From Herminiimonas sp. (GTDB taxonomy: Bacteria > Pseudomonadota > Gammaproteobacteria > Burkholderiales > Burkholderiaceae): a stretch of DNA of 6,328 bases. A program made the position numbers and the translations under genes. The stretch is from the NCBI GenBank assembly GCA_014377155.1, contig JACMQD010000006.1, positions 1 through 6,328 on the forward strand, read 5' to 3'. The notes below the pieces were generated by a model that was not told the origin of the DNA, ran no database searches, and saw only the letters and a program-made list of their open reading frames with translations. Position 1 is the first letter of the stretch, and every line of letters starts with the position of its first letter. Shown piece by piece: positions 1 to 2,974 of the stretch.

Positions 1-1840
1 CCCCCATCAAGCCGGCGTTGACGATACCCATGGTCATGCCGGCCTGGATCGCGTGGTACAGGAACACGGTATGGATTGCCTCGCGCGCCGGATCGTTACC
101 GCGGAAGCTGAAGCTGACATTGGAGACGCCGCCGCTGATCTTGGCATGCGGCAGATTATCGCGAATCCATCGTGTCGCATTGATGAAATCGACCGCGTAA
201 TTGTTGTGCTCGTCGATGCCCGTGGCGATGGCAAAGATATTCGGATCGAAGATGATATCTTCCGGCGGAAAATCGATCTTCGACACCAGCAGGTCATAAG
301 CGCGCTTGCAGATCTCGATCTTCCGTTCGAACGTATCAGCCTGACCTTTTTCATCGAACGCCATGACGATCACGGCTGCGCCATAGCGTCGGCACAACCG
401 GGCCTGGCGCAGGAATTCGGCCTCGCCTTCCTTCATCGAAATCGAATTGACGATGGGCTTGCCCTGCACACATTTCAGGCCGGCTTCGATCACCGACCAT
501 TTGGACGAGTCGATCATGATCGGCACCCGCGCGATGTCGGGCTCGGACGCGATCAGGTTCAGGAAGCGCGACATGGCGGCGACGGAATCGAGCATCGCCT
601 CGTCCATATTGATGTCGATGACTTGCGCCCCATTCTCGACTTGCTGGCGCGCTACAGTCAGCGCCTCGTCGTATTGCTCGTTGAGGATCAGCCGTGCAAA
701 GGCTTTGGAGCCGGTGACGTTGGTACGCTCGCCGACGTTGACGAATAGCGAATCATCGTCGATGACGAATGGTTCCAGGCCGGACAGCTTCATCGACGGC
801 GATACGATTGGTACCTGGCGCGGCGCGATGTTGGCGACAATGTCAGCGACCGCGCGGATATGATCCGGGGTAGTGCCGCAGCAGCCGCCGGCGATATTGA
901 CGAAGCCGCTCTCGGCAAAATCCTGCAGCAAAGATGACGTCACGTCGGGCGTCTCGTCGAAGCCGGTGTCGCTCATCGGGTTGGGCAAGCCGGCGTTCGG
1001 ATAAATGCACACGAAGGTGTCGGCGATCTTCGACAGTTCTTCGGCATAAGGACGCATCAGCGCCGCACCGAGCGCGCAGTTCAGGCCGATCGTCAGCGGC
1101 TTGGCATGGCGCACCGAATTCCAGAAGGCCGGCACGGTCTGTCCCGACAGGATGCGCCCGGAAGCGTCGGTTACGGTGCCGGAAATCATGATCGGCAAAC
1201 GCTTGCCGGATTCCTCGAAATAAGTGTCGATCGCAAACAGCGCTGCCTTGCAATTGAGCGTGTCGAAAATAGTCTCGACCAACAGCACGTCGGAGCCGCC
1301 TTCGATCAGCGCCCGCGTCTGGTCCAGGTACGCCGCCACCAGCTGATCGAAGGTGACGTTGCGCGCGGCCGGATCATTGACGTCGGGCGAGATCGATGCG
1401 GTCTTCGGGGTCGGCCCGAGCGCGCCGCAGACGAAGCGCGGCTTGTCCGGGGTTGAATACTTGTCGCAGGCCGCGCGTGCCAGCCGCGCCGCTTCGAGAT
1501 TCATCTCGAAGGACAGGTGCGCCATGTGGTAATCGTCCTGCGCCACGGTGGTCGCGCCGAAGGTATTGGTCTCGATCAGGTCGGCACCGGCGGCCAGGTA
1601 CTGCCCGTGGATTTCGCTGATGATCTGCGGCTGTGTCAGGGTCAGCAGTTCATTGTTGCCCTTGACGAAAATTTCCTTGCCCGGCACCGAGAAATCGGCG
1701 AAGCGCGGACCACGATAATCCTCTTCCGTCAGCTTGTATTGCTGGATCATGGTACCCATGGCGCCATCCAGGATCAGGATGCGGCGGGTCAGCAAATCGC
1801 GCAAATGCGCTTCAGTCAGGGAAATGGCGTCGCGTTTCAT
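1..1840 (-). CDS. metH: Cobalamin-dependent methionine synthase, N-terminal half (partial at left edge)
   Basis: Cytosolic 5-methyltetrahydrofolate-homocysteine methyltransferase. It moves a methyl group from methyl-folate through cobalamin to homocysteine, giving methionine. The frame runs from the ATG at 1840 to the window edge without a stop: 613 of the roughly 1230-1260 residues usual for the family. Residues ~17-335 are the homocysteine-binding barrel, with [10 protein letters not shown] near the start and the expected zinc-ligand cysteines visible as Cys255 (GLNCALG) and Cys320-Cys321 (GGCCGTTP). Residues ~365-613 are the pterin-binding barrel ([12 protein letters not shown] at 367-378, [13 protein letters not shown] at 443-455, [13 protein letters not shown] at 569-581). 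The B12-binding and AdoMet-reactivation domains would lie outside the window. The start is supported by homology to the family N-terminus and a weak AAGAG five bases upstream. Hcy and pterin domains are in one frame here, whereas some Burkholderiales encode them separately. It lies downstream of fmt, separated by a structured leader (see aptamer and terminator). Confidence 0.95.
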
Positions 1841-1885: not shown

Positions 1886-1917
1886 AAAAACCCGGCCGCA
1901 AAAAACGGAGCCGGGTT
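1886..1917 (-). terminator. Intrinsic terminator in the metH leader
   Basis: Read on the minus strand, AACCCGGC (1917-1910) pairs perfectly with GCCGGGTT (1896-1889). The stem runs into a U tract (1890-1886), with more U residues shortly after. The loop is 13 bases and could extend the stem with CCG/CGG. There is no U tract on the opposite strand, so it acts in the fmt-to-metH direction only. It sits between fmt and metH, 46 bases before the metH ATG. It could simply end the def-fmt transcript. Because a likely promoter and a structured RNA lie upstream of it, I infer that it is the off-state of a metH attenuator. Confidence 0.8.
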
Positions 1918-1964
1918 AGGCACATCCGCTTTAGCAGTATTTTATTTAGGGTGGAAACCCCGGC
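1910..1964 (-). promoter_or_regulatory. Candidate antiterminator pairing in the metH leader
   Basis: GCCGGGGTT (1964-1956), the 3' strand of P1 plus the next bases, is complementary to AACCCGGC (1917-1910), the 5' arm of the terminator, apart from one extra G. The two pairings exclude each other. If P1 is held by ligand, the terminator arm is free and transcription stops. If P1 opens, the antiterminator can form and metH is read. This is the usual layout of a ligand-off attenuation switch. It is a pairing prediction only. Confidence 0.45.
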
Positions 1965-2005
1965 GCCCGCAAGCTGGGTTTGACTTGTTCAATCAAATCG
2001 GCGCC
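1926..2005 (-). promoter_or_regulatory. Candidate SAM-II-like riboswitch aptamer upstream of metH
   Basis: On the minus strand GGCGCC (2005-2000) and GGCGCC (1967-1962) form a 6-bp P1 helix. The loop begins GATTTGA (1999-1993), like the conserved GAUUU of SAM-II. The end of the loop, CCAGCTTGC (1977-1969), can pair with GCTAAAGCGG (1935-1926) as a pseudoknot. The pairs are C1977-G1926, C1976-G1927, G1974-C1928, C1973-G1929, U1972-A1931, U1971-A1932, G1970-C1934 and C1969-G1935. A1975, A1930 and U1933 are unpaired. UUGC against GC(U)AA, the single unpaired base before P1', and an A-rich strand before GCUAAA are all features I recall of the SAM-II (metA) class. Two small hairpins look inserted: UUGA/UCAA (1992-1980) in loop 1, and GGGU/ACCC (1960-1949) just after P1. 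No B12 box and no SAH-riboswitch core were seen. The structure is folded by hand and the ligand is inferred. Confidence 0.55.
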
Positions 2006-2010
2006 AGAAA

Positions 2011-2023: not shown

Positions 2024-2974
2024 TCAGCCGAAGCGTCCGCCTTCCATCGGAAAACCCTTGAGGAATTCAGGCGCCGGCAAGCGCTTGGCGCCGGGTTTTT
2101 GCAACTGCGCCAACCGTAATGCACCCCCCCCCCCCGCCACCACGACGCCGGCGTGGGCGTCGCCCGCCAGGATATCGCCCGGCGCGCCGGAGGTTTCGCC
2201 GAGCGCCTCGGCTTGCCATAGCTTCAGCGTGACGCCGTTGAAAACAGCCGACGCGCCTGGGAACGGATTGAAGGCGCGAATCTTGCGCGCGATGACTTCG
2301 GCCGGCTGCGTGAAATCGAGCGCCGCTTCGTCTTTGGCGATCTTTGCCGCATACGTGACACCGGCTTCGGGCTGCGGCTGCGCCGCCAGCGGCGCTCGTT
2401 CCAGCTTGCGCAGGGCATCGACGATCATGCGCCCACCCATCAGCGCCAGTTTGTCGTGCAGGCTGCCGGTGGTATCGCCAGCGTCGATCGGCAGCCGTTC
2501 CATCGCCAGCATCGGCCCGGTGTCGAGTCCTTCTTCCATGTGCATGATGGTGACGCCGGTGTCGGTATCGCCGGCTTCGATGGCACGGTGGATCGGTGCC
2601 GCGCCACGCCAGCGCGGCAGCAGCGAGGCATGGATGTTGATACAGCCTTGCGCCGGAATATCGAGCGTCGAGCGCGGCAGGATCAGGCCGTAGGCGGCCA
2701 CCACCATGACATCGTGCGGTGTGGCCCGTAGCAAGGAATGCGCTTCGGCGGCGACCTCGGGATATTTGCCGTCCAGGCGCAAGGACACTGGTTGCGCGAC
2801 CGGGATGGCGTGCGCGAGGGCGAACTGCTTGACGGCGGACGCCTGCAGTTGCATGCCACGTCCGGCCGGGCGGTCGGGCTGGGTCAGCACCAGGGAGATA
2901 GGGAATCCCGCATCATGCAGCGATTTCAATGCAACCGCGGCGAATTCGGGCGTGCCGGCAAAGACGATGTTCAT
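2024..2974 (-). CDS. fmt: Methionyl-tRNA formyltransferase
   Basis: Cytosolic enzyme that formylates Met-tRNA(fMet) using 10-formyl-tetrahydrofolate, to start protein synthesis. It is 316 residues, about the family length of 315. The N-terminal Rossmann-type domain starts [12 protein letters not shown]. The folate-binding/catalytic loop [12 protein letters not shown] is at 117-128, and the Asn-His-Asp catalytic set fits N113, H115 (INIHAS) and D151 (GLDTGP). The C-terminal tRNA-binding domain (~210-316) has [11 protein letters not shown] and ends [11 protein letters not shown], as in the family. The ATG at 2974 gives the expected N-terminus, though no clear Shine-Dalgarno is present. It follows def by 82 bases on the same strand, the common def-fmt pairing. 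A run of 12 G (see repeat) encodes part of A280-G284. The frame is intact in this copy. Confidence 0.97.
2124..2135 (-). repeat. 12-G homopolymer inside fmt
   Basis: Twelve consecutive C on the plus strand (G in the fmt coding strand) cover the last base of the A280 codon and the G281-G284 codons, in the C-terminal domain. Frame and downstream protein match the Fmt family at this length. Gain or loss of one G would replace about the last 32 residues, so the tract is a possible slippage site. It is also a place where sequencing errors are common. Confidence 0.95.

Follow-up and report, generated by a model that had tools for sequence, protein, structure and literature searches.

There is a strong case, built from the sequence, that the gap between fmt and metH in a 6,328-nucleotide stretch of Herminiimonas DNA (the window, meaning the whole stretch that was analysed) encodes an aptamer of the SAM-II class, and this aptamer very probably belongs to a riboswitch that controls metH through transcription attenuation. 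The riboswitch class itself is known, and what we describe is an ordinary class in a new setting and with a new twist. The metH subfamily, its pocket-masking hairpin, the likely identity of the metXZ element and an element before metK are undescribed in the literature searched; among the matches listed, which were judged by title or the start of the abstract and drawn mostly from outside subscription journals, none describes a SAM-II element at metH. The assignment provides a regulator for the B12-dependent methionine synthase in Oxalobacteraceae, shows that modest insertions can conceal riboswitches from curated models, proposes a ligand for metXZ, an orphan element, gives a testable example of competition between a hairpin and a ligand pocket, and suggests that the Rfam sRNA family Bp2_287 was modelled on the strand opposite a riboswitch.

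On the minus strand of the window the order is fmt, the gap, and then metH (Table 1). The 613 residues of MetH inside the window score 1113 bits against NCBIfam PRK09490 and 945 bits against TIGR02082, values that fall under the whole-protein cut-offs because the gene is truncated by the window edge, and the nearest MetH relatives are those of a Burkholderiales MAG (90%) and of Noviherbaspirillum (88%), which makes Oxalobacteraceae the most likely family of the source. Read 5' to 3', the gap consists of TATAAT (2016-2011), GGCGCC-GAUUUGA (2005-1993), an insert within loop 1, CCAGCUUGC-G-GGCGCC (1977-1962), a second insert, an A-rich strand, GCUAAAGCGG (1935-1926) and a terminator (1917-1886).

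Table 1. Coordinates of genes and RNA features at the fmt-metH gap of the window
Feature	Position	Strand	Basis or remark
metH (methionine synthase)	2..1840	(-)	start ATG 1840; runs off window
fmt (methionyl-tRNA formyltransferase), gene upstream	2024..2974	(-)	NCBIfam TIGR00460, 270 bits, cut-off 201.5
TATAAT -10-like box, ends 5 nt before P1	2011..2016	(-)	sequence; start expected at or near first P1 base
P1 5' strand GGCGCC; conserved core 2004-2000	2000..2005	(-)	sequence, conservation
GAUUU, start of loop 1	1995..1999	(-)	U1997-U1995 correspond to pocket U10-U12 (positions from the available part of PMC3764141)
Loop-1 insert hairpin UUUGAUU/AGUCAAA (1997-1991/1985-1979), overlapping U10-U12	1979..1997	(-)	pairing counts; -3.7 kcal/mol
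P2 pseudoknot 5' strand CCAGCUUGC	1969..1977	(-)	sequence, conservation
P1 3' strand GGCGCC	1962..1967	(-)	sequence, conservation
Insert hairpin after P1 (1961-1957/1952-1948)	1948..1961	(-)	fold against shuffles
A-rich L3 strand	1937..1947	(-)	AAAUAAAAUAC in window; AUAAAUAC or similar in most relatives
P2 pseudoknot 3' strand GCUAAAGCGG, with pocket U44 and A45-A47	1926..1935	(-)	sequence, conservation, positions from the available part of PMC3764141
Proposed antiterminator 1937-1934/1899-1896 and 1932-1925/1909-1902, U1933 bulged	1896..1937	(-)	nascent-RNA folds; complementarity test
Intrinsic terminator (1917-1909/1897-1889) and U run 1890-1886	1886..1917	(-)	folding

A first-pass annotation, made from the letters of the window, had drawn a 6-bp P1, a GAUUU at the start of loop 1 and an eight-pair pseudoknot in this gap. 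The GAUUU is present and the eight pseudoknot pairs (1977-1969/1935-1926) were placed exactly, with the same element recurring in 20 of the 80 metH loci that a protein-similarity search had gathered. The five core pairs of P1 (2004-2000/1967-1963) also hold as drawn, but the outer pair 2005-1962 is not conserved, being unpaired in 11 of the 20 distinct rows of alignment A1. Applied to a first alignment of 21 rows, the complete structure as originally proposed pairs 85.6% of cells, compared with 34.6-44.4% for slid versions, and 87.7% are paired once the loop-1 hairpin is shifted as described below.

Wider counts were obtained from 182 sequences, of which 158 were parsed into 149 unique leaders and 145 unique Burkholderiales aptamers; since the sequences are related these counts overstate independence, and as the loci come mostly from the best rows among the matches listed, the sample leans towards good matches. 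The 24 unparsed sequences comprise eight loci matched by RF02424 (L155-L162), eight weak or different matches (L090, L092-L098) to R1, a model built on metH leaders, and eight probably true copies that the pattern missed (L106, L109, L120, L176, L193, L214, L236, L241). Within the 145 aptamers P1 reads GCGCC/GGCGC in 144 and GCGCU/GGCGC in one, and the inner C-G and G-C pairs of P2 are standard in 136 and 131, respectively. Covariation support at P1 and most of P2 is thin because P1 is identical in 144 of 145 and most P2 pairs hardly vary. The end pair of P2 (1977-1926) does covary: 112 of the 145 aptamers have a standard pair there, where shuffling gives a mean of 90.5 (sd 3.7). It is C-G 48 times, U-A 45, U.G 15 and A-U 4, and sliding it by one position lowers the number of standard pairs to 62 and 71. 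The expectation that P1 and pseudoknot would recur in related metH leaders has thus been borne out for both, with covariation at the P2 end pair but without it at P1. The pairs that would extend P2 beyond this end are unsupported, forming in 42 and 39 of the 145 aptamers where shuffling gives means of 52.6 and 38.6. The A-rich L3 strand keeps a conserved AUAAAU in the relatives, with one additional A in the window.

The SAM-II binding pocket, as given in the available part of PMC3764141, is composed of U10-U12, of U20, U21, G22 and C23, and of G42, C43, U44 and A45-A47. Going by those positions, all 13 nucleotides occur in the window, as UUU (1997-1995), UUGC (1972-1969) and GCUAAA (1935-1930).

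Curated models nevertheless miss this aptamer. At gathering thresholds no Rfam family exceeds its cut-off in the window, and RF00521 (36 bits) finds no match in the window or in 19 of the 20 element-bearing metH loci, L034 having been outside that search. Relaxed thresholds, which had been recommended as a check on the gap, yield no full SAM-II or SAM-V match: the window's 3' half alone matches RF01726 (SAM-II long loops; 11.7 bits, E 6, cut-off 44), and the SAM-V model, whose accession we take to be RF01826, finds nothing in the gap at E up to 10. A search of plasmid DNA returned no match. The suggestion that the inserted hairpins hide the aptamer from standard models was right. Neither insert is present in five Undibacterium loci (L016, L023, L024, L026, L030) and one MAG (L034), all of which resemble plain SAM-II; L016 matches RF00521 on the correct strand at 19.6 bits (E 0.0053).

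Two purpose-built models were also searched. Model R2 derives from 11 RNAs, each taken from a place at which RF00521 scores above its cut-off; none of the 11 has inserts, the window was excluded, and one member (L125), typed metH by motif, is without either insert. R2 picks up the window aptamer in two collinear parts. One spans 2004-1963 and contains an insertion of 13 bases (13.8 bits, E 0.0018); the other spans 1956-1924 (18.5 bits, E 5.6e-5). The next-best place in the window has E 0.22. Among the 80 metH loci R2 recovers the same 20 leaders at E of at most 0.0023 (L002, L009 and L019 as halves), and two further matches fall under 0.01, both on the minus strand (L034, E 0.00023; L032, E 0.009). 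Model R1, built on 21 metH leaders including that of the window, matches 266 of 399 Burkholderiales genomes at E 0.01 or better; RF00521, with the same order and search size, matches 184 of 399 at E 0.01 and exceeds its cut-off in 69. Among the matches listed, the places of the two models coincide, as at G107:C1 (52.5 bits). In view of these 69 genomes and of the available part of PMC2258182, a betaproteobacterial SAM-II, which the first-pass annotation had thought notable, is not in itself new. Its assignment of the class is upheld by the complete pocket, by R2, by the plain Undibacterium form, and by relatives that exceed the RF00521 (SAM_alpha) cut-off in front of other methionine genes, such as L114 and L127 before metZ. 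SAM is the presumed ligand, and both ligand and off direction are argued from membership in the SAM-II class.

The window thus shares with SAM_alpha the H-type pseudoknot, the GAUUU of loop 1, the UUGC and GCUAAA strands, the A-rich L3, a terminator and a methionine gene, and differs from it in the two inserted hairpins, one of them over U10-U12, in the metH target and in falling below Rfam detection. SAM-II long loops resembles it as a long-loop SAM-II by name and in the 3' strand (AAAAAAAUGCUAAAgCAG), and differs in matching the 3' half alone, at the score given above; a table in the available part of PMC2864571 places that family in Bacteroidetes and marine sources.

Both inserted hairpins exist. 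Shuffles in the insert-fold, UCAA, -10 and nascent-pairing tests were of letters, and those for complementarity and terminators kept dinucleotides. The hairpin proposed just after P1 (1960-1949) is real and well supported, its pairs being 1961-1957/1952-1948. An insert of at least 12 nt follows P1 in 93 of 145 aptamers, and 64 of these rank in the top 5% when their folds are compared with those of letter shuffles; the fold of the window's own insert is equalled by only 1 of 200 shuffles. In loop 1 a hairpin had likewise been predicted correctly (1992-1980), but in the wrong register, its four pairs (1992-1989/1983-1980) being complete in only 22 of 45 leaders. That register was rejected: in the shifted one the third pair, Y1992-R1984, forms in 45 of 45 (U.G 39, C-G 4, U-A 2), and the fourth forms in 37 of the 41 leaders whose loop is long enough. 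These 45 sequences, in which UUGA is followed by UCAA, comprise 44 metH-typed aptamers and L150, whose downstream frame likewise reads as MetH. UCAA, the complement of the pocket UUGA, is found in all 44 metH-typed aptamers with a loop of at least 21 nt, rows that were chosen without regard to UCAA; they represent 34 unique inserts, all 34 with UCAA where letter shuffles lead one to expect 4.5.

The loop-1 hairpin is weak (19 nt, -3.7 kcal/mol) and covers part of the pocket. In the crystal structure, according to the available part of PMC3764141, U11 and U12 form the triples U11-A45-U21 and U12-A46-U20, and for this reason the outer pairs of the hairpin and SAM binding should be mutually exclusive; its inner pairs alone (GAY/RUC) would not exclude binding. 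In the unbound RNA the hairpin would pair U10-U12 and would have to open, at least in part, for SAM to bind. Any effect on regulation is presumptive, and would probably be a tuning of threshold or kinetics. We offer only tentatively, as the less probable outcome, the broader proposal that UUUGAY...RUCAAA is a pocket-masking stem of the metH subfamily which pairs U11 and U12 and acts as an internal competitor, closed in the unbound RNA and open in the bound one, beside the contest of P2 and antiterminator, within a wide and poorly annotated Burkholderiales SAM-II network that includes the unannotated metK relative. If true, the stem would represent a new means of setting a riboswitch threshold. 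Several metX copies (e.g. L175, L179, L187, L189) carry unrelated loop-1 hairpins, and loop 1 therefore tolerates insertions generally.

A promoter-like box and a terminator frame the aptamer. No clear -35 was seen in the window sequence before the TATAAT box. Among the 64 unique metH-typed aptamers, 52 have a -10 match of at least 5/6 in the 25 nt 5' of P1, as do 10% of letter shuffles. The metH-typed boxes stand mostly 6-7 nt before the conserved P1; among metX leaders just 1 of 35 has one. Downstream, 133 of the 149 leaders have a terminator, against 2% of shuffled sequences; for metH the count is 63 of 66. The 3' strand of P2 finds a complement at the 5% level within the next 75 nt in 59 of the 149 leaders, where about 8 would be expected; by group the counts are 33 of 66 for metH, 6 of 6 for genes like cystathionine gamma-synthase, 3 of 36 for metX, 2 of 2 for metK and 15 of 39 untyped. 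In the window itself 11 of 200 shuffles do equally well, which is just outside the 5% level. Given the metX figure, the idea of one antiterminator common to all copies was dropped.

Folding of the growing RNA of the window pairs AAAGCGGA with UCCGUUUU and then CUGC with GCGG (-17.8 kcal/mol), and this antiterminator is the best nascent fold until most of the 3' arm of the terminator has been made. When the antiterminator strand is blocked in silico, mimicking the effect expected of SAM binding, the terminator is the only structure to form. The complete terminator structure (-20.1 kcal/mol) is more stable than the antiterminator, and switching would therefore depend on kinetics. A nascent-pairing test was positive in 59 of 64, yet its shuffled control already reached 59%. 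With z -1.11, the minimum-energy fold of the whole leader shows no unusual stability, and it is uninformative because it cannot show a pseudoknot and is dominated by the terminator.

Transcription attenuation at this leader is probable, and competition between pseudoknot and antiterminator under kinetic control is its likely mechanism; promoter activity, direction of control (SAM-off) and switching path are read from the arrangement of the leader. Transcription would begin at P1, from a promoter just upstream. When SAM is plentiful, an H-type pseudoknot would be closed around the ligand by loop 1 together with the GCUAAAGCGG strand, and with that strand sequestered the terminator (1917-1889) would form and leave metH untranscribed. 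At low SAM the same strand would pair with UCCGUUUU...GCGG in the terminator region, permitting read-through into metH.

A SAM-II aptamer might instead work without any antiterminator, the terminator serving only to end fmt or stray transcription and SAM acting on translation or RNA stability. That the complete terminator outcompetes the antiterminator in silico is in line with this, as is the terminator after the SAM-II aptamer of S. meliloti metA, which the available part of PMC9373788 does not predict to be SAM-dependent. We regard it as improbable nonetheless, since complementarity between the 3' strand of P2 and the terminator region is found in more leaders than expected. Moreover, the metH start codon lies 85 nt past the aptamer, a distance at which occlusion of the ribosome site by P2 is not obvious, and the promoter-like box between fmt and aptamer means that the terminator follows a new start and not fmt alone.

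Two further readings question the sensor itself. The failure of any Rfam SAM-II model to match the window at gathering, with no more than the RF01726 fragment when relaxed, could mean a new class that resembles SAM-II and senses, for example, SAH or methionine; this is highly unlikely, for the pocket of PMC3764141, in its available part, is kept in full, and the insert-free versions among these leaders pass gradually into SAM-II that Rfam accepts. It is a shade less probable still that the conserved letters are a DNA site for a protein regulator, beside a simple terminator and with no RNA sensor. Near-invariance of P1 and most of P2, with little covariation, is what such a site would look like, but both insert hairpins stay paired as their sequences change, the end pair of P2 covaries, and the P1 closing pair of the metK relative described below is of four types (C-G 7, U-A 7, G-C 6, A-U 1) and paired in 21 of 21 rows.

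Genes in the leader counts were typed by short motifs, and 10 frames were checked by NCBIfam. This upheld metH (L104, L111) and metX (L088), showed metK for L092, and identified the untyped L102, L114 and L127 as metZ and L107 as threonine ammonia-lyase. L091, typed 'metZ' by motif, was placed in the cystathionine-gamma-synthase family, and that family is the better label for all six leaders that the motif script called 'metZ', L091 being the one checked. Close copies of the element accordingly precede metX (L088), metZ (L102, L114, L127), a cystathionine-gamma-synthase-family gene (L091) and other metH genes (L104, L111). At L107 a canonical copy has a threonine ammonia-lyase gene 70 nt after the aptamer, an unexpected target. 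Canonical SAM-II over the RF00521 cut-off also stands about 57 nt directly before metK (gene by motif) at L216 and L235, and SAM synthetase itself is thus probably a target in some Burkholderiales.

Six other metH leaders, of Herminiimonas (L004, L010) and Herbaspirillum (L008, L011-L013), have no aptamer matching the search pattern; a TATAAT box and a close terminator-like hairpin occur 100-136 nt before metH, with a poor U run in L013, and the sensor may have been lost or replaced in these short leaders. A Betaproteobacteria toxic sRNA (RF02278) lies just upstream of the riboswitch at L006:2148-2208 and L001:2232-2296.

One published element deserves comparison. PMC4239095, in its available part, reports SAM_alpha only from Rhizobiales and Rhodobacterales, and describes a metXZ element that precedes metX or metZ in most studied beta-proteobacteria, with six conserved regions, pseudoknot pairings 1-4 and 2-6, a terminator and no assigned ligand. 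That description fits the metX and metZ copies found here, from which we infer that the metXZ element is SAM-II; the comparison is with the text description, and metH is not among the targets named in that part of the source.

The Burkholderia sRNA family Bp2_287 (RF02424) has sub-threshold matches that coincide with the element. Its consensus corresponds to the core in reverse complement, and in the best 8 of the 31 matches listed, those compared (L155-L162), it lies on the strand opposite to the R1 match in 8 of 8. None of 100 genomes exceeds its cut-off (best 37.3 bits against 70), and a sub-threshold match also occurs in the E. coli control. The view of Bp2_287 as an unrelated sRNA was dropped once strands were compared, and what RF02424 models seems to be a SAM-II leader in reverse complement.

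A divergent SAM-II-like relative is found mostly before metK (L092:1500-1559; L245-L259; L262-L290), the gene being identified by NCBIfam for L092 and by motif for the others. Its pattern, CGCC-GAGUUAA...ACAACUUGCG-GGCG...CGCUAAAGCG, is present in 25 of 300 genomes and in none of the reversed control, and in 6 loci no Rfam family matches it at E up to 1. The 30 best loci of model R3, many of them R3's own training places, lie before metK (15), before a small M[YF]DC frame (8) or before another gene (1), or are without the core (6). The R3 tally of 255 of 399 mixes metK-type and canonical SAM-II, because R3 cross-matches the latter; a canonical copy lies upstream in 4 of 24 typed R3 loci. Tandem copies occur at L156 (1528-1582 and 1696-1752) and L159 (1524-1578 and 1692-1748), where a SAM-II copy with a terminator-like hairpin is followed by a promoter-like box, a divergent metK-type copy and a small frame, that of L156 having no NCBIfam match. 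Further downstream in the metK locus L245 there is a SAH riboswitch (L245:2818-2905; RF01057, 61.4 bits).
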